From Hellea sp. (GTDB taxonomy: Bacteria > Pseudomonadota > Alphaproteobacteria > Caulobacterales > Maricaulaceae), in NCBI GenBank assembly GCA_013002305.1, contig JABDKG010000040.1, forward strand, positions 62,001 through 126,000: 64,000 nucleotides of DNA, written 5' to 3'. Shown in pieces: positions 48,171 through 57,250 of this stretch. A model generated the notes under the pieces. That model was not told where the DNA came from. It did not search any database and was given only the letters and a program-made list of their open reading frames with translations. Each line of letters starts with the position of its first letter. The first letter of the stretch is position 1. Both the position numbers and the translations under genes were made by a program.

Positions 48171-48278
48171 AGGTACAGACCTCAATCGATTAGGGTGCAG
48201 TTTCTAATTTTTTTCCCTATCTCAAGCCTCAAGGACACCGGAATGAATATTCGGTTTTAATTTTGAAAGGACAAAACA

Positions 48279-48770
48279 ATGGCAACTGCAAAGAAAACAG
48301 CCAAGAAAACTGTCAAAAAGACAGCGAAGACAGCGAAAAAAGCAACAGCGAAAACTGTTGATACAGCTGAAAAGAACACACTCAACGTTATCGAGGCTGC
48401 TCGCAAAGGCGCTTTGGCATATGTTGGTCTTTACGGCGCAGCTTATGAGCGTGCGACAATGCGTTGGTCACAGCTTCGCGCAACAACTGACGGCCTGTTC
48501 GACCAAATGGTTGAACGCGGCGAAGTTATCGAGTCTAAAGCCGGCGACATGTTCAAAAGCACCCAAGCTAAAGTCTCAGAGCGTTTTGAAGAAGGCACAG
48601 AAAAAGTTAAATCTATCTTGCCAACTTCCGCCAATGACCGCGTTGAAGAGCTGGAAACAGAGATCAAAGCTCTGAACAAGAAAATTGTCGCTCTTGGCAA
48701 GAAGGCTACAACTTCAGCCAAAGCCAAAATGAAAACAGAAAAAACAACTAAAGCCAAAAAAGCTGCTTAA
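48279..48770 (+). CDS. phasin with Lys/Ala-rich tails (PhaI/PhaF-like)
   Basis: A 163-residue phasin. The N-terminal 30 residues and C-terminal 20 are Lys/Ala/Thr-rich (histone H1-like, AKKT repeats), as in PhaF, and could bind DNA. The middle ('LNVIEAARKGALAYVGLYGAAYERATMRW', 'LFDQMVERGEVIESKAGDMF', then a leucine-spaced helix 'RVEELETEIKALNKKIVAL') is the phasin helix that coats polyhydroxyalkanoate granules. AAAGGA precedes ATG 48279. Codon use favours AAA, CGT and GCT more than its neighbours, fitting high expression. A strong terminator follows, so it is transcribed apart from phaC. Confidence 0.85.
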   Translation: MATAKKTAKKTVKKTAKTAKKATAKTVDTAEKNTLNVIEAARKGALAYVGLYGAAYERATMRWSQLRATTDGLFDQMVERGEVIESKAGDMFKSTQAKVSERFEEGTEKVKSILPTSANDRVEELETEIKALNKKIVALGKKATTSAKAKMKTEKTTKAKKAA

Positions 48771-48793
48771 GCCGCTTTTAGTCTTTTAGGTTT

Positions 48794-48825
48794 AAAGCGT
48801 GGGTTTCAGACCCACGCTTTTTTTT
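48794..48825 (+). terminator. rho-independent terminator after the phasin gene
   Basis: An 11-base perfect stem AAAGCGTGGGT / ACCCACGCTTT (48794-48820) with a five-base loop is followed by eight T in a row (48818-48825). Confidence 0.92.
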
Positions 48826-48920
48826 GTCGCAAAATCATCTCGGGTAAAGCCGCGCCTTTACCTTGCGCCAAAAGCATAATCAGGTTTAATATTTATCGAC
48901 CTGCAAAATTAGGAATGATC

Positions 48921-50600
48921 ATGGCAAAAACACCAGAAGAAATCGGGAAAGAAGCTGCAAAAACCACGACTGCAGTCAATACGTTAGTGGGATTGCGCCG
49001 ATCAGATTTTGTGAAGTCTCTCGGAATTCTGGTTAAAACCGCTGCAAAACAGCCCAAGCCTTTCGCCAAACATCTCGGTCAATATGGCAAAGAGCTGGTA
49101 GAGATTGCCAAGGGCAACTCCGAAATTGCGCCGGATAGCCGTGATCGCCGGTTCAAAGATGAGACCTGGTCGAAAAACCCGGTTTACAAACGCGGCCTGC
49201 AAAGCTGGCTGGCAATGCGCAATGAGCTTAAGGGCTGGATTGAAGATAGCGGCGCGACCGAGCCTGATAAGGTGCGGGCCAATTTCATGCTCGACATTAT
49301 TATCGATAGCCTTGCGCCGACCAATACGCTGCTCGGTAATCCGGCGGCGATGAAAAAACTTTACGAAACCGGCGGAACGTCTGTGCTGCGTGGTCTTAAA
49401 AATGCCTATCACGATCTTCGCCATAATGGCGGCATGCCCAGCCAGGTTGACGGAACGCCGTTTAAGGTTGGCGAAAATCTCGCAACCTCCAAAGGTGCCG
49501 TCGTGTTTAAAGACGAGATGCTCGAGCTGATCCAATATCAGCCGACCACCGACCAAGTTTACAAAATTCCAATCATGATCATCCCGCCGCAAATCAATAA
49601 GTTTTACGCCAATGATCTCGCGCCGAATAAATCGATTATCCGGTTTCTGACATCACGCGGCTATCAAGTGTTTGCCGTCTCTTGGCGGAACCCGACGCGC
49701 CAGCACTCGCACTGGGGGCTGGCTAATTATGTTCAGGCGCTGATCGACGCGTCTGACGTGGTCAAAAAAGTCACGCGCTCAGCGCGGATCAATGTTTCTG
49801 GCGCCTGTTCGGGCGGAATTACGACGGCTCTGTTTCTATCAGAGCTGGCGGCGCGCGGCGATAATCGCGTTAATGCCTATTCACTGATGGTTTGCGTGCT
49901 CGACGGCAAGCGATCAGATAGTGAAGTCGGTATGTTTGTCACCGATGGTGCCATAGAAGCTGCCCGGAAACATAGCCGGAAAAAAGGTATATTGTCCGGC
50001 GACGAGCTTGGACGCTCCTTTGCCTGGATGCGCCCGAATGATCTGATCTGGAATTATGTGGTCAATAATTACCTCCTCGGCGAAAACCCGCCGCCATTTG
50101 ATGTACTTTACTGGAATAATGATACAACCAATCTACCAGCGCAGCTGCACTCTGATTATCTGGATATTTTCCTGGATAAGAGATTTCGGAAGGATACCGC
50201 CGTTGAATTTATGGGCAATATTGTCGATTTGAAAGCTGTTACTCAGGACGGGTTTATGGTGAGCGGTGTCACGGATCACATCACGCCGTGGAAGGCCTGC
50301 TATCGCAATGTGCATCTGTTTGGCGGCGAACTCGAAATGGTCTTATCGTCGAGCGGTCATATCCAATCTTTGTTAAATCCTCCGGGCAACCCTAAAGCCA
50401 AATATTTCACCAATCCTGAGTTTCCCGAAACGCCGGATGAGTGGGTCGCCGGGGCCGAGCAGGTCGAGGGTTCATGGTGGCCGCGCTGGGATCAGTGGCT
50501 CTCCATCCGCTCGGGTGAGATGAAAAATTCGCCGCGCTCTTTGGGCAATAAGGAATATGCACCGATTAAGAAAGCGCCCGGCTCTTACGTGTTTACCTAG
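48921..50600 (+). CDS. phaC: poly(3-hydroxyalkanoate) synthase, class II-like
   Basis: PhaC polymerises 3-hydroxyacyl-CoA into storage polyester at the granule surface. The 559-residue protein has the lipase-like box 'VSGACSGGITTALF' with catalytic Cys near residue 296, catalytic Asp in 'VSGVTDHITPWKACYRN' and His in 'LSSSGHIQSLLNPPGNPKA'. The GACSGG box and the GHIQSLLNPPGNPKA block are typical of the Pseudomonas class II enzymes, which use C6-C14 monomers, rather than class I (GxCxGG). ATG 48921 has AGGA six bases upstream. phaZ, a phasin and phaD follow in one direction. Confidence 0.93.
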   Translation: MAKTPEEIGKEAAKTTTAVNTLVGLRRSDFVKSLGILVKTAAKQPKPFAKHLGQYGKELVEIAKGNSEIAPDSRDRRFKDETWSKNPVYKRGLQSWLAMRNELKGWIEDSGATEPDKVRANFMLDIIIDSLAPTNTLLGNPAAMKKLYETGGTSVLRGLKNAYHDLRHNGGMPSQVDGTPFKVGENLATSKGAVVFKDEMLELIQYQPTTDQVYKIPIMIIPPQINKFYANDLAPNKSIIRFLTSRGYQVFAVSWRNPTRQHSHWGLANYVQALIDASDVVKKVTRSARINVSGACSGGITTALFLSELAARGDNRVNAYSLMVCVLDGKRSDSEVGMFVTDGAIEAARKHSRKKGILSGDELGRSFAWMRPNDLIWNYVVNNYLLGENPPPFDVLYWNNDTTNLPAQLHSDYLDIFLDKRFRKDTAVEFMGNIVDLKAVTQDGFMVSGVTDHITPWKACYRNVHLFGGELEMVLSSSGHIQSLLNPPGNPKAKYFTNPEFPETPDEWVAGAEQVEGSWWPRWDQWLSIRSGEMKNSPRSLGNKEYAPIKKAPGSYVFT

Positions 50601-50650
50601 GTAAACTTTTTGAAACAGGCGGGGCGGCCATAAAACAACACTGGACAGAC

Positions 50651-51538
50651 ATGACTGACTACCACCCAAACTTGCCGCGAATATTTTTTTCCAAAATAGG
50701 CAACCAACAACTCCGGACCGCAATTTGGGATGGGACGGATAAGGGGCAGGGCAAACGCACGCCGCTGTTGTTCTTTAATGGTATTGGCGCCAATTTGGAA
50801 ATCGCGCAGACCTTTGCCGATAGTTTCACAGGTCGGGATATCATTACATTTGATATGCCCGGTGTCGGCGGATCTCCGGATCCGACTTTTCCTTACCGGC
50901 CATGGTGGGTCGCAAGCGCGGCCAAAACTATTCTCAAGGAAAATGGCTATGACGAGGTTGATGTTCTGGGCGTGTCCTGGGGCGGCGGTCCCGCGCAGCA
51001 ATTTGCCTGGCAATATCAGGACATGGTTCGTCATTTGGTGCTCTGTTGCACAACCACCGGCGTCACCATGGTGCCGGGACGGGCATCGGCGCTCATTAAA
51101 ATGATCTCGCCTAAGCGCTACATGGATAAGGACTTTCTGACCAAAAACTTTGAAACGCTCTATGGCGACGCGACCAAAGCGGTCGAAGAGTTTTCGATCA
51201 ATATGATCCCGCCGAGCCTAAAAGGCTATCTTTATCAGTTGGGCGCTATGGCGGGCTGGTCCAGCCTCCCATTTTTACGCCGAATCAAAGTTCCGACCCT
51301 GATTATGATGGGCGGAAATGATCATATTGTCAGACCGATAAATGGACGTATGATGCACGCCATATTGAAAAACTCGACTTATCATGAGTTTGAAGGTGCC
51401 GGACATTTGTTCATGCTGACCCGCCGTAAAGAATTTATTCATGAGCTTCGAGTGTTTTTCGAAGAACCAGAAGTGCCGCTCCCGGAAATTGAACCGGTCC
51501 AGCTGCCATCTGTAACGGCGTCTTACGCTCACTTTTAG
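50651..51538 (+). CDS. phaZ: intracellular PHA depolymerase (PhaZ-like alpha/beta hydrolase)
   Basis: A 295-residue alpha/beta hydrolase. 'VLGVSWGGGPAQQFAWQY' holds the nucleophile Ser, 'LCCTTTGVTMVPGRASALI' and 'SPKRYMDKDF' match the medium-chain-length PHA depolymerase PhaZ of Pseudomonas, and 'GGNDHIVRPINGRMMH' and 'FEGAGHLFMLTRRKEF' give the Asp and His. It releases hydroxy acids from granules. Position directly after phaC is the same as in Pseudomonas phaC1-phaZ clusters. The ATG is at 50651 with no better alternative. Confidence 0.9.
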   Translation: MTDYHPNLPRIFFSKIGNQQLRTAIWDGTDKGQGKRTPLLFFNGIGANLEIAQTFADSFTGRDIITFDMPGVGGSPDPTFPYRPWWVASAAKTILKENGYDEVDVLGVSWGGGPAQQFAWQYQDMVRHLVLCCTTTGVTMVPGRASALIKMISPKRYMDKDFLTKNFETLYGDATKAVEEFSINMIPPSLKGYLYQLGAMAGWSSLPFLRRIKVPTLIMMGGNDHIVRPINGRMMHAILKNSTYHEFEGAGHLFMLTRRKEFIHELRVFFEEPEVPLPEIEPVQLPSVTASYAHF

Positions 51539-51547
51539 GAGATCATT

Positions 51548-52006
51548 ATGGCCAAGAAAAAGTCTGGAAAATCAAGTGACAAGTCGAGCGAGAAACGCTC
51601 AACCGGCGATGCGGCGCGGCGAATTTGGCTGGCCGGAATCGGCGCCTATGGCCGGGCTTTTTCGGAAGCTCAAGAGGCCCTTAAAGATGTCACCGGCAAC
51701 ACGAGCAAGGTTTTTGATGACCTGGTTCAAAAGGGCGAGATTATAGAATCTGCTGTCTCGAGCCGATCTAAAAAAATGATGGAAAAGGCAGGAGTTCCCG
51801 GATTTGACCTGGATGACCGTATTTCCAAAATGCGCTCGAGGCTTTCGCGCGGCGAAGATGTGGCCCAGGATCTGTCTGATCTTGAAAAGCGCGTCAACGC
51901 CATGGATGTGAAACTAGATAAAATTCTTGCACTTCTTTCCAAACCTGCGCCGAAATCCAAACCGAAAAAACCAACCACCACCAAACGCACAAGCTCAAAA
52001 AAATAG
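51548..52006 (+). CDS. phasin (PhaI family), granule-associated
   Basis: A 152-residue phasin, second of the cluster. A Lys/Ser-rich start leads to 'RRIWLAGIGAYGRAFSEAQEALKDV', 'VFDDLVQKGEIIESAVSSRS' (the PhaI/PhaF family core) and a heptad-like helix 'DLEKRVNAMDVKLDKILALLS'; the end is again Lys/Pro/Thr-rich. It lies nine bases after phaZ and three before phaD, with GGAGA in front of its ATG, so the four genes phaC-phaZ-phasin-phaD form an operon. Similar in plan to the first phasin, but the two are clearly different genes. Confidence 0.88.
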   Translation: MAKKKSGKSSDKSSEKRSTGDAARRIWLAGIGAYGRAFSEAQEALKDVTGNTSKVFDDLVQKGEIIESAVSSRSKKMMEKAGVPGFDLDDRISKMRSRLSRGEDVAQDLSDLEKRVNAMDVKLDKILALLSKPAPKSKPKKPTTTKRTSSKK

Positions 52007-52009
52007 CAC

Positions 52010-52648
52010 GTGCCCGAGCGCTCCAAAACAAAGACCCGGATTTTAAAAACAGCGCTGGAGCTGTTTAATAATGAAGGCGAAGCTCAGGTTAGCGCCGTCG
52101 ATGTCGCATCGGTTATGGGGATCAGTCCGGGCAATCTCTATTACCATTATAAGGGCAAGCCGGAAATTATCGCGGCGCTGTTTGAGGATTTTGAAGAAGA
52201 GATCGAACTGATCTTATCCGGCCCGATCAGCGAGCCGCTTAATCTCGCCGATAATTGGGTCTATCTCTATATAATTTTTGAAGAGATTTATGACTTCCGG
52301 TTTTTCTACCGTAATATGTCAGATATCTTGATGCGAATTCCGCAATTGCGCACTCGTTTCTCACGAATTTTGTCTCACAAAGAACAGACGGCGTTCTCGC
52401 TTATTTCCGATCTGGAAAAAGGCGGCAATCTGACATTCCAAGAAGGCGAAAAAGGCGCGCTCGCCGGCCGGATAGCCCAGCATTTCACATTCTGGCTCCA
52501 ATATCATGATCTGCGACATGAAACGACGCCGCCAAAAATATTAATTGATCAAGGCGTTTTCACGACCCTCATCCAAATCACGCCCTATTGGACCCGGGGC
52601 GATGGTTATTCAGAACTCTTGACCGAGTTTCTTGAGGGCCAGTCTTAA
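52010..52648 (+). CDS. phaD: TetR-family regulator PhaD-like
   Basis: A 212-residue TetR-type protein. The HTH 'ILKTALELFNNEGEAQVSAVDVASVMGISPGNLYYHYKGK' is followed by a ligand-binding domain with 'DNWVYLYIIFEEIYDFRFFYRNMSDILMR', characteristic of PhaD, which in Pseudomonas activates phaC and phasin promoters in response to fatty-acid metabolites. It starts at GTG 52010 just three bases after the phasin stop, so translation is likely coupled. Placement at the end of the pha operon supports the assignment. Confidence 0.88.
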   Translation: MPERSKTKTRILKTALELFNNEGEAQVSAVDVASVMGISPGNLYYHYKGKPEIIAALFEDFEEEIELILSGPISEPLNLADNWVYLYIIFEEIYDFRFFYRNMSDILMRIPQLRTRFSRILSHKEQTAFSLISDLEKGGNLTFQEGEKGALAGRIAQHFTFWLQYHDLRHETTPPKILIDQGVFTTLIQITPYWTRGDGYSELLTEFLEGQS

Positions 52649-53325: not shown

Positions 53326-53715
53326 ATGGCGCGCCTCAAAGCCCCATCTCAAAGACAGTTAAAGGCCGGTGAACTTATTCGCCGGGCTCTGTCTGAAATC
53401 ATTGCCAAAGAACATTTGCGTGATCCGGATCTGAGCGGCGTCTCTGTGACAATTTCCGAGGTGCGCGCATCCCCGGATTTGAAACAGGCGATTGTTTACG
53501 CGGCGCCTCTGGGCGGCGGGGACAACGATAAACTGATTGCAGCGCTCAACCGCTGCGCCCGGTTTCTGCGCGGGCGTCTGGGCCATCATATGGAAATGAA
53601 ATCCACGCCGGCTCTAAAATTTGTGGCCGACACCAGTTTTGATGTCGCCACAGATATGAATAAGATTTTCAATCGCCCCGAGGTTAAACGGGATTTGAGG
53701 CACGAAGAAGAGTAG
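53326..53715 (+). CDS. rbfA: 30S ribosome-binding factor RbfA
   Basis: RbfA helps mature the 30S subunit and 16S rRNA 5' end. The 129-residue protein has the KH-like core: 'RQLKAGELIRRALSEIIAKE', 'SGVSVTISEVRASPDLKQAIVYAAPLG', 'LRGRLGHHMEMKSTPALKF' with the conserved K-x-x-P-x-L-x-F. It starts the rbfA-truB-rpsO-pnp block; infB/nusA, often upstream, are not here, and a terminator separates it from the preceding gene. AAAGGAA lies before ATG 53326. Confidence 0.96.
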   Translation: MARLKAPSQRQLKAGELIRRALSEIIAKEHLRDPDLSGVSVTISEVRASPDLKQAIVYAAPLGGGDNDKLIAALNRCARFLRGRLGHHMEMKSTPALKFVADTSFDVATDMNKIFNRPEVKRDLRHEEE

Positions 53716-53717
53716 GA

Positions 53718-54635
53718 TTGGCCCGAAGACGAAAAGGAAATCCAGTGCATGGCTGGGTGGTTTTTGACAAGCCGCTTGGCATGGGCTCGACCAAAGCGGT
53801 CGGGAAATTGCGCTGGTTATTTCAAGCGCAAAAAGCCGGCCATGGCGGTACGCTTGATCCACTCGCAACCGGTATATTGCCAATTGCACTTGGCGATGCA
53901 ACTAAAACAGTGCCGTTCACGATGGACGCAACCAAGACCTATGACTTTATATTATGCTGGGGCGAGAGCCGCGATACGATTGACGCCGAAGGCGCCGTGA
54001 CTGCCGCATCAGATGTTCGTCCGTCGCGGGCTCAGATCGAAGCGATATTGCCTGGCTTCATTGGCGACATAGAACAGGTTCCGCCGCGCTATTCAGCGAT
54101 CAAGGTCGATGGGAAGCGCGCCTATGACCTTATGCGGCAAGGCGAACAGGTCGAACTTAAGTCCCGAACAGTTTCCGTTCATTCGCTCGAAATTATGGAT
54201 TCGAAAGATGATTATGTTGTCTTGACCATGACGTGCGGGAAGGGGACTTACGTACGGTCCATCGCCCGCGATCTCGCGGCCGAGCTTGGCGCCTGCGGAT
54301 ATGTCAGTTTTTTGCGCCGGACCCGTGTTGGAAGCTTTGACGAATCAAGTGCTTTTTCACTAGACGATCTTGAAAAACTCTGTCATAGGGGCGGCGTTTT
54401 AGAGGCCCTCGCGCCTGTACAGGCTGTGCTGGACGACATCCCGGTGCAAAATGTCACAGAAATCGAGGTCCATAATCTGAAACAGGGACGGGCAATAGCC
54501 GCGTCAAACTCTCATGACCCTTCGGAAATCGAAGACGAGCCCTTTTGGGTTTTGGCCATGGAAGATGATGTTGCCATCGCTTTGTGCCATCTGCGCAGCG
54601 GTCAATTATGGCCTAAGCGTGTTTTTAATTTGTAA
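53718..54635 (+). CDS. truB: tRNA pseudouridine(55) synthase TruB (TTG start)
   Basis: TruB makes pseudouridine 55 in the T loop of tRNAs. The 305-residue protein shows '[20 protein letters not shown]', '[19 protein letters not shown]' with the catalytic Asp, '[19 protein letters not shown]' and the C-terminal PUA-like domain. The frame starts at TTG 53718, two bases after the rbfA stop, with GAAGAAGAG upstream; the next possible start (GTG 53745) would cut into the conserved N-terminus. Co-transcribed with rbfA and rpsO. Confidence 0.97.
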
Positions 54636-54652
54636 CAATAACGGAGATTACG

Positions 54653-54922
54653 ATGTCGATTACACCCGAGCGCAAAGCTGCGCTAATCAAAGATCATGCC
54701 CGCAAATCGGGCGATACAGGTTCCCCAGAAGTTCAAGTTGCCATCCTGACAGAACGGATCGTAAATTTGACGGAACATTTTAAAACTAATCACAAAGATA
54801 ATCACAGCCGCCGCGGTCTGTTGTCCATGGTGACACAGCGGCGTCGTTTGCTCGACTATCTTAAAAAGAAAGATGATGCCCGTTATCAGGACATTATCGC
54901 GAAATTGGGACTACGTCGCTAA
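54653..54922 (+). CDS. rpsO: 30S ribosomal protein S15
   Basis: An 89-residue S15, the standard length, which binds 16S rRNA early in 30S assembly. '[40 protein letters not shown]' and '[20 protein letters not shown]' are fully conserved. ACGGAG precedes ATG 54653. rpsO-pnp is the classical order, with a terminator/attenuator between them. Confidence 0.99.
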
Positions 54923-54939
54923 GACGGGTTTCTAGAATG

Positions 54940-54967
54940 AAAAGGCCGCCAAGGGGGTGGCCTTTTT
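54940..54967 (+). terminator. rpsO-pnp intercistronic terminator/attenuator
   Basis: AAAAGGCC (54940-54947) pairs with GGCCTTTT (54959-54966), extended inward by GCC/GGT, and runs into a T stretch. It probably reduces read-through from rpsO into pnp. Confidence 0.82.
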
Positions 54968-55042
54968 CTTAAAGCGCAAAGACGCGCAAAAGTACGGGCC
55001 CGACAAGACGAATGACAGGGCCAATAATGAAAGAACGTATGT

Positions 55043-57250
55043 ATGTTTAATAAACAAGTTGTTGAACTGGATTGGGCGGGTCGTCCGCTAATCCTCGAAA
55101 CGGGCGGAATGGCCCGTCAAGCCGATGGGGCGGTTCTCGCCACTTACGGCGAAACCAAATTGCTCGCGACCGTTTGTGCCGCGAAAGCTCCAAGAGAGGG
55201 ACAAAGCTTTTTCCCGCTCACAGTCAATTATATGGAAAAGTTTTATGCTGCCGGTAAAATACCGGGTGGCTATTTTAAACGCGAAGGTCGTCCGACTGAA
55301 CGCGAAACTCTTATCGCCCGTCTAACTGACCGTCCGATCCGTCCTTTGTTTGCCAAAGGCTTCAAAAACGAAGTTCAAGTTGTTATCACGGTTCTCCAGC
55401 ACGATCTGGAAAATGAACCTGATGTGCTGGGCATGATTGCAGCTTCTGCTGCCCTGACCTTGTCAGGTCTGCCATTTATGGGACCGATTGCGGCTGCCCG
55501 CGTGGGTCTGATCGACGGCGACTATGTCCTGAACCCGACGCTCCAAGAGCTCGAAGACAGTGATCTCGATCTGGTTGTCGCCGGTACTCATGACGCTGTT
55601 ATGATGGTTGAGTCTGAAGCCAAAGAATTAACCGAAGAGCAAATGCTCGGCGGCGTGATGTTTGCGCATGAAAGCTTCCAGCCTGTGCTCGAAGCAATCA
55701 TTGAACTGGCCGAAGGATCTGCAAAAGAGCCGTGGGATTATCAGGCGCCTGATTACTCAGCTGAGAAGAAGGCTGTTGCCAAACATGCCGAAAAAGCTGT
55801 GAAGGCGGCCTATAAGAAGACAGAAAAAATGGAACGCCAGGACGCCATCCGCGCTGCAAAGGATGCGGCTTGGGAAGCACTCGGGCAGTCAGACGAAAAT
55901 GAAGACGGAATGCCCTATGGAATTTTCGGTGATGTTTTTAAGTCTCTGGAATCCGGCATTGTTCGCTCATCCGTTATCAAAACCGGTAAGCGGATTGATG
56001 GCCGTAAGGTCGACGAAGTTCGCCAAATCGTTTCAGAAGCAACACCGCTCCCGCGCACACATGGTTCTGCCTTGTTTACTCGCGGCGAAACTCAAGCGCT
56101 TTGTGTGGCCACGCTCGGCACATCAGATGATGAGCAATTTGTCGATCAGCTAACCGGCACGATCAAGAACAAGTTCTTGCTGCATTATAACTTCCCGCCA
56201 TATTCTGTCGGCGAAGCCGGCCGTATGGGCGGCACATCCCGCCGCGAAACCGGTCATGGTAAACTTGCATGGCGCGCGCTTCAGGCGGTTCTGCCTAGCC
56301 CGGATGATTTCCCTTACACGATCCGTCTTGTTTCCGAGATCATGGAATCTAACGGTTCATCATCAATGGCGACCGTTTGCGGTTGCTCGCTCGCTATGAT
56401 GGACGCGGGCGTTCCGATTAAGCGTCCGGTTTCCGGCATTGCTATGGGTCTGATTAAAGAAGATGACGGCGTTGCTGTTCTCTCTGATATTTTGGGCGAT
56501 GAAGATCACCTCGGTGATATGGACTTCAAAGTCGCGGGGACTTCCGAAGGCATTACATCTTTGCAGATGGACATCAAAATTGCCGGTATCACAGAAGATA
56601 TTATGCAGACCGCTTTGGCCCAGGCCAAAGACGGCCGTCATCATATCCTTGGCGAAATGAACAAGGCGCTTGAAGAAGCCCGTGATGACGTTGGTGAATT
56701 TGCGCCGCGTATCGAAACCATGAAGATCCCGGTCGATAAAATCCGTGACGTCATCGGCTCCGGCGGTAAAGTTATCCGCGAAATCGTCGACACAACAGGC
56801 GCCCGCGTCTCTGTCGAAGATGATGGTACGATTAAAATCGCTTCAAATGACCAAGCCTCTATCACAGCGGCCAAAGACTGGATTCACAGCCTCACAGCTG
56901 AGCCGGAAGTTGGCGTGATCTATACAGGCAAAGTCGTCAAGGTTGTCGATTTCGGTGCATTTGTGAACTTCTTCGGTAAAAAAGATGGCCTTGTGCATGT
57001 CTCTCAAATCGCCAAAGAGCGCGTCAATCACCCATCTGACTACCTCAAAGAAGGTCAGGAAGTTTATGTTAAGCTGATGGGCTTTGATGATCGCGGCAAA
57101 GTTCGCCTCAACATGAAATATGTTGATCAGGAAACTGGACTTGAATTCCCTCGCGAAGATAATAGCGGATCCAAAGACGACAGTAAGAGAGAGGACAATA
57201 AGAAAAAACCTCGCCGTCGTCGCCGCGGAAAGTCTAACGAAGAAGAATAG
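55043..57250 (+). CDS. pnp: polyribonucleotide nucleotidyltransferase (PNPase)
   Basis: PNPase degrades RNA 3' to 5' with phosphate and is part of the degradosome. The 735-residue protein has two RNase PH-like domains (start '[25 protein letters not shown]'; second with '[18 protein letters not shown]' and '[24 protein letters not shown]'), the KH domain '[20 protein letters not shown]' near residue 570, and the S1 domain '[28 protein letters not shown]' near 630. The last 40 residues are a charged Lys/Arg-rich tail. Length is normal. Confidence 0.98.

Follow-up and report, generated by a model that had tools for sequence, protein, structure and literature searches.

We describe a polyhydroxyalkanoate (PHA) gene cluster at positions 48279-52648 of the window, that is, the whole 64,000-nucleotide stretch of Hellea sp. 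contig JABDKG010000040.1 analysed here. With a probability of roughly 70%, we read it as a complete and self-contained PHA module of class II lineage that would work as proposed below. In this reading it is the sole PHA synthase system detected in a Hellea-like genome (Robiginitomaculaceae), represents an old lineage sister to the Pseudomonas cluster, and takes the place of the class I system with its phaC, phaB, and phaR. New here is an 18-bp imperfect palindrome before the first phasin gene, a putative operator of the regulator PhaD, an element also present at Pseudomonas-type phaC1 and phaI. The source is a draft genome of 2.94 Mb.

The synthase encoded by phaC (48915-50600, plus strand) presents the triad C298-D454-H482 together with Q484 and L487 (own numbering), and the motifs GACSGG and GHIQSLLNPPGNPKA are present as quoted in an earlier reading of this DNA (the first-pass annotation). 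It scored 707 bits with the class II profile TIGR01839 and 499.5 with the class I profile TIGR01838 (both NCBIfam). The PhaC tree held 66 hand-chosen rows (the window, 31 alphaproteobacterial, 8 Pseudomonas-type, one Caballeronia, one Tsukamurella, 22 class I, and 2 class III) and was built by a quick and then by a careful method; L111, from which no PhaC open reading frame was extracted, was left out. Pseudomonas-type denotes 13 genomes of one family and two genera over the class II cut-off, a name inferred from that cut-off and the gene layout. The window PhaC fell within the class II clade (support 100/97). Forcing it together with all 22 class I rows cost 79.9 log units (approximately unbiased test, p-AU 7e-7), and with the 20 main ones, minus L161 and L168 –labelled class I, on a separate deep branch– 180.7 (p-AU 2e-60). 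The constrained trees thus ruled out class I membership; the first-pass annotation had called the synthase class II and had named a PhaC firmly inside class I as its refuting test, which was run on the trees and came out negative.

Within class II, 29 alphaproteobacterial rows and the window formed one clade (99/98). Its sister clade joined the Pseudomonas-type and Caballeronia rows (96/91), with all eight Pseudomonas-type rows in a single clade (100/100) outside the alphaproteobacterial one. The divergent alphaproteobacterial rows L126 and L134, together with the actinobacterial row, fell outside both subclades. The window PhaC nested stepwise, first in Robiginitomaculaceae and then with Parvularculaceae and Kordiimonas (91/82 for the Kordiimonas step), and its nearest named relatives include uncultured Caulobacterales, Hellea, Algimonas, Litorimonas, and Robiginitomaculum, several of them placed in Robiginitomaculaceae. 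By this placement, the window synthase is an old sister lineage of Pseudomonas class II. The deepest class II branch was that of a Tsukamurella plasmid (L148), where a MaoC gene and then phaZ stand behind a class II-clade phaC.

The lineage was also found in Hellea, Robiginitomaculum, Hyphomonas, Kordiimonas, Parvularculaceae, Parvibaculum, and sphingomonads. Cultured relatives that carry the cluster include Litorimonas cladophorae KCTC 23968 (L039) and Robiginitomaculum antarcticum DSM 21748 (L044). When 398 genomes across the phylum were searched with TIGR01839, the 13 over the cut-off were all of one family, 15 scored 601-707 bits (own genome included, all of the window's class), and the rest at most 472. 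Among 385 genomes of the class, 10 reached at least 600 bits (own genome included), two 548-557, and the rest at most 490, with none over 855. In a large genome survey, nearly all class II genotypes detected among Proteobacteria were those of Pseudomonas (PMC8312272). In the open-licence literature, judged mostly from listings, we recognised no description of the alphaproteobacterial lineage or of a cross-class operator; PMC9676036 and PMC4326521 contributed nothing decisive.

We compared 61 genomes, the window's own and 60 relatives; these are related genomes, and the counts are not independent events. A class II-type synthase was present in 30 of them (18 alone and 12 beside class I), 27 had class I only, and 4 had none. 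Counting only matches above the curated cut-offs, PhaR and PhaB displayed identical distributions: each was found in 0/18 genomes with class II only, 26/27 with class I only, 11/12 with both, and 0/4 without PhaC. PhaD at 120 bits or more was found in 18/18, 1/27, 12/12, and 0/4, respectively, using a profile (A1) with three of its ten rows drawn from these 61 genomes. In the own genome, profile searches found no second or class I phaC, no PhaR, and no PhaB over the cut-off. Since all 18 class-II-only genomes lack PhaB and PhaR over the cut-offs, the class II module appears to stand in for the class I pathway in genomes with this synthase alone. The cluster is no oddity among Alphaproteobacteria, with the same synthase clade in 30 of the 61 genomes; its interest lies less in being exotic than in its regulation and in the missing class I pathway. 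Two genomes deserve mention on their own. The class-I-only genome with PhaD holds a strong match (281 bits, G052:C14:74043-74660) and no class II phaC, and on contig 2 of G033 the cluster is apparently split, phasin-phaC opening the contig and PhaD lying some 186 kb away on it.

The five plus-strand open reading frames of the cluster are all intact and occupy 48279-52648, in agreement with the first-pass annotation. The first (48279-48770) encodes a phasin-like protein, a PhaF/PhaI relative that is Lys/Ala-rich at both ends. Between it and phaC lies a terminator-like hairpin (48794-48820, plus strand) of 12 pairs with a run of T behind it; its stem is the longest among 12 candidates (shuffles averaged 6.0 candidates). 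Behind phaC come an intracellular PHA depolymerase of class II type, PhaZ (50651-51538; motifs GVSWGG and GHLF), and a second phasin (51548-52006), which passes PF05597 (38.7 vs. 28.8, Pfam) and NF047773 (36.6 vs. 35, NCBIfam). The last gene (52010-52648, GTG start) encodes the TetR-family regulator PhaD, over the Pfam cut-offs for PF13972 and PF00440.

Compared directly with Pseudomonas-type clusters, the window PhaC was 45-50% identical to its counterparts. Against two of these clusters (L173 and L174), PhaZ was 37-38% identical over about 262 amino acids and PhaD 35% over 206 and 163 amino acids, and profiles of both phasin families detected the PhaI/PhaF-type genes (best E-values 6e-15 for the family of the first phasin and 4e-14 for that of the second). 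PhaD and PhaI/PhaF-type phasins are thus linked to phaC-phaZ in the window, as in the Pseudomonas-type medium-chain-length PHA locus. The first-pass annotation had claimed a Pseudomonas-like gene set with PhaZ and PhaD of Pseudomonas type. The five families are indeed present and both counterparts matched directly, but the layout differs, with a phasin first and a hairpin here, and both PhaC and PhaZ stay below their curated cut-offs. The Pseudomonas-type layout is phaC-phaZ-phaC-phaD/phasin-phasin, with two phaC in 11 of 13 genomes and one in L185 and L186. The window shares with Pseudomonas phaC1-phaZ-phaC2-phaD/phaI-phaF all the gene families, phaZ right behind phaC, PhaD, and the 18-bp element before a phasin gene. 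It differs in having no phaC2, a leading phasin with its own element and terminator, and a phaC without element; in Pseudomonas-type clusters the phasins are encoded downstream in convergent orientation, whereas in the window a phasin leads. No second synthase gene was found around phaZ, and this phaC was the only one detected in the own genome.

Comparing upstream regions retrieved a conserved element, TTAGKRYGCGSTTTCTAR, before the first phasin gene. Its halves approach the palindrome TTAGAAAGC-GCTTTCTAA, with the dyad TTAG-N10-CTAA. In the window the putative PhaD operator, proposed from conservation, is TTAGGGTGCAGTTTCTAA (48190-48207, plus strand), an imperfect 9+9 palindrome of 18 bp. 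In the 64-kb window alone, chance gives a mean of 1.1 matches at up to 3 mismatches; what counts is that the element is conserved and where it stands. Genome-wide in the own genome, a 22-mer found one site at up to 3 mismatches (control, 0), and a looser 18-mer at 1 mismatch found two, the second (L201) without a phasin.

Across 80 named loci, at up to 2 mismatches, 46 carried the element before a phasin (50 sites), and eight matches were scored elsewhere: three near the start of a phasin frame that the start-codon rule missed (L071, L075, and L079) and five Kordiimonas-type sites. One mononucleotide shuffle of the 1.07 Mb of loci gave 4 matches. The element was found in 44 of 60 loci with PhaD and phasin, in none of the 12 with neither, and in both loci with a phasin and no PhaD, of which L037 ends past the second phasin and L048 (G033) apparently has PhaD elsewhere. 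The 16 misses among loci with PhaD and phasin comprise two loci cut off upstream (L038 and L045), the three start-rule misses, eight Parvularculaceae-like loci (L050 named to class only), six of them with a 3-mismatch variant near the phasin start, and three with a different 3-mismatch variant (L091, L098, and L109). By genome type, the element at up to 1 mismatch was present in 16/18 genomes with class II only, 9/12 with both, 2/27 with class I only, and 0/4 without PhaC; in the two class-II-only genomes lacking it (G002 and G025), a contig end cuts the cluster. Of 18 exact sites, 16 lie at the cluster (G053 by distance only) and two elsewhere before phasins, one beside a PhaD gene (L187) and the other in L188.

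The same element marks the Pseudomonas-type clusters. Their 13 stretches (159 kb) contained 24 matches at up to 3 mismatches, compared to a mean of 2.0 and a maximum of 4 in 20 shuffles, and these lay before phaC1 (13, counting the sole phaC of L185 and L186) or phaI (11), with none elsewhere. All 11 stretches holding phaI had the phaI match, which in three cases carried 3 mismatches; L181 stops short of phaI, and no phasin was seen in L185. In G187, phaI lies on another contig and was located through the motif itself (L202), bringing the phaI total to 12/12. Genome-wide, at up to 1 mismatch, the 13 genomes presented 24 sites vs. 2 for the control (13 at phaC1, 9 at phaI, and 2 elsewhere), with a pattern that was loosened to fit those genomes and is partly circular. 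In Pseudomonas putida, PhaD reportedly activates the phaC1 and phaI promoters (PMC9049629). The DNA-binding helix-turn-helix part of the window PhaD is identical to those of four Pseudomonas-type PhaDs at 31-32 of 58-60 positions, and the remainder at 32-33 of 147-148, a pattern that would fit a retained operator combined with drifting ligand sensing. Altogether, we propose the 18-bp element as a putative PhaD operator common to alpha- and gammaproteobacteria. A covariation of the recognition helix with the operator (SPGNL vs. SPGHL PhaDs) was weak and was dropped.

We propose that the module works as follows. Excess fatty acids or other carbon would pass through beta-oxidation, and MaoC/PhaJ-type hydratases encoded elsewhere in the genome would supply (R)-3-hydroxyacyl-CoA. 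A search of the own genome gave three MaoC proteins, none over an NCBIfam cut-off; among them, those in L144 and L145 look similar, by eye, to the one beside the Caballeronia class II phaC, and we take them as candidate PhaJ. PhaC would polymerise the (R)-3-hydroxyacyl-CoA from Cys298, the two phasins, judging from their family, would coat and partition the granule, and PhaZ would free the monomers. PhaD would bind the palindrome at 48190-48207 and control the first phasin gene, comparable to phaI and phaC1 in P. putida, and phaC-phaZ-phasin-phaD may form an operon behind the terminator, transcribed from its own promoter or by read-through.

Regarding substrate, we compared residues across 149 distinct PhaC rows, including 107 alphaproteobacterial, 15 Pseudomonas-type, and 22 class I, at positions 130, 325, 477, 481, 482, and 484, with numbers and effects taken from PMC6403647 and PMC4636328. 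At these positions, which matter in Pseudomonas enzymes, the window has D130, C325, S477, Q481, S482, and L484. Q481 is shared by all 107 alphaproteobacterial and all 15 Pseudomonas-type rows, with A in 22/22 class I rows. L484 is found in 15/15 Pseudomonas-type rows, with I or V in class I and I in 22 of the 107 alphaproteobacterial rows. Both classes commonly have S477 and D130, the latter being native in 11/15 Pseudomonas-type rows. E130D and S325T are among the mutations used to alter the class II enzymes of Pseudomonas, and a Tyr-to-Phe change marks a further class II position (PMC6403647). In the Caballeronia synthase, the closest in the tree to the Pseudomonas-type rows, position 484 is I, like in the PhaC2 of C. 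pinatubonensis. The Tyr-to-Phe position presumably maps to F419 of the window; by this mapping, given little weight, it is F in 15/15 Pseudomonas-type rows, Y in 21/22 class I rows, and mixed in the alphaproteobacterial ones. The window PhaC likely prefers medium-chain monomers, judging from these residues, and the storage of longer 3-hydroxyacids suggested in the first-pass annotation is plausible.

Several observations weigh against the reading of a class II module controlled by PhaD. PhaC, at 707 bits, is below the curated TIGR01839 cut-off of 855, PhaZ below that of TIGR02240 (178 vs. 251 bits, NCBIfam), and the first phasin under both the Pfam and NCBIfam phasin cut-offs (18.4 and 21.6 bits). 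The window has C325 (Cys in 86 of the 107 alphaproteobacterial rows), where 15/15 Pseudomonas-type rows have Ser and class I has A, T, or S. The C. pinatubonensis PhaC2, class II by tree and with I at 484, polymerises only 3-hydroxybutyryl-CoA (3HB-CoA) (PMC4636328). Reductase matches under the PhaB cut-off occur in all 61 genomes, and the own genome has 31 of them (best 238 vs. 302 bits), any of which might make 3HB-CoA. As for the element, it tracks phasin genes: it is absent from the six loci with PhaD and no local phasin (0/6), and the 12 PhaD-less loci lacking it are phasin-less as well. At up to 1 mismatch, its 41 sites (27/61 genomes) compare with 20 for the reversed control, and of 14 off-cluster sites opened (of 19), six lie before phasins and eight do not. 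Finally, no element was seen at the window phaC, unlike in Pseudomonas.

The strongest alternative is that this class II-clade cluster actually makes short-chain or mixed short- and medium-chain PHA. Membership of the class II clade does not fix the substrate, because the C. pinatubonensis PhaC2 uses 3HB-CoA only (PMC4636328), and this precedent is joined by the I484 of the Caballeronia synthase, the reductases below the PhaB cut-off, and the C325 and D130 of the window, positions of mutations used on Pseudomonas enzymes (PMC6403647). On the other hand, the window has L484, as in 15/15 Pseudomonas-type rows, plus Q481 and S477 (the latter usual in class I too), and PhaB over the cut-off is missing from all 18 class-II-only genomes, yet beta-oxidation could also supply 3HB-CoA. 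We regard this alternative as a serious contender that nevertheless has the lower odds.

A second alternative takes the 18-bp element as a promoter, or as a site where a regulator other than PhaD acts on phasin genes. The element was found by conservation alone, it marks alphaproteobacterial phasin genes even far from phaD (L188, L189, L193, L194, and L196), and the 12 PhaD-less loci that lack it also have no phasin, so that the two absences are confounded. As the element follows the phasin gene, PhaD and phasin effects are inseparable in the 80 loci, and this confounding slightly reduces our confidence in the PhaD-controlled module. However, an unrelated site fits less well with the dyad symmetry, with 24 of 24 Pseudomonas-type matches at phaC or phaI, whose promoters are reportedly PhaD-activated, with a DNA-reading domain of PhaD far better conserved than its remainder, and with an element frequent in genomes with a class II synthase (16/18 and 9/12) and rare in class-I-only ones (2/27). 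We therefore consider this alternative unlikely, though it keeps some weight.

That the Pseudomonas cluster was recently acquired by horizontal transfer, which the shared gene families and the PhaC identity would allow, is contradicted by the trees and highly improbable. The alphaproteobacterial and Pseudomonas-type clades are sisters in the PhaC tree, with the window nested among alphaproteobacteria; the split between them may go back to an ancient transfer, in either direction, or to common ancestry. The tree of 31 PhaZ rows, built by the quick method and with 9 of its 28 inner branches starred, likewise groups its six Pseudomonas-type rows together and apart (98). The PhaZ tree places Caballeronia with the alphaproteobacteria (91) and thus disagrees with the PhaC tree on that row.

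Other known systems resemble the module in part. The phaC2 cluster of C. pinatubonensis JMP134 (PMC4636328) and the Caballeronia locus L147 also have a single class II-clade phaC with phaZ. In L147 a MaoC gene (by reading) adjoins phaC, whereas the window cluster has no phaJ, and unlike both systems the window has L484 and PhaD; no PhaD match was found across the 11.7 kb of L147. The class I phaC of neighbouring Caulobacterales has the synthase family and triad in common with the window, but belongs to another PhaC clade and comes with PhaB and PhaR, whereas the window genome has no PhaR and no PhaB over the cut-off.

Beyond the cluster, the element recurs downstream of it in five Kordiimonas-type loci (L063 11934, L064 12001, L065 11957, L066 11684, and L067 11843; L064, L066, and L067 so named). 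In L064 it lies about 1 kb past phaD, and in L064 and L067 it precedes a wax ester synthase/diacylglycerol acyltransferase-like gene (name by reading). One-mismatch sites in three genomes (L192, L195, and L197) lie 71-144 bases before genes for similar proteins, SleB-like cell-wall hydrolases by eye. In the window, rbfA-truB-rpsO-pnp (53326-57250, names by sequence reading) follows directly downstream of the cluster. A fixed genomic position was rejected: the flanks (aldo/keto reductase, thpR, and rbfA-truB-rpsO-pnp, named by reading) match in one of 69 loci of at least 9 kb, that of the close relative L077. Rfam detected one tRNA within the window and nothing at the cluster.

More broadly, the class II module –synthase, depolymerase, PhaI/F phasins, PhaD, and the 18-bp operator– may be one ancient regulatory unit of Alpha- and Gammaproteobacteria. 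It may have entirely displaced the polyhydroxybutyrate pathway (class I phaC, phaB, and phaR) in a marine alphaproteobacterial branch, where PHA would be stored only via a PhaD-controlled route fed by beta-oxidation, and PhaD may control other storage genes, such as the wax ester synthase/diacylglycerol acyltransferase-like genes of Kordiimonas-type loci. We advance this wider view tentatively, with the balance of chances close to even. The tree places an alphaproteobacterial sister lineage of class II, and co-occurrence suggests that some of its members have lost the class I pathway. Many genomes with a single synthase could thus serve as sources of class II-type enzymes, and the predicted PhaD operator points to a specific sequence at which this regulator, so far studied chiefly in Pseudomonas, may act.

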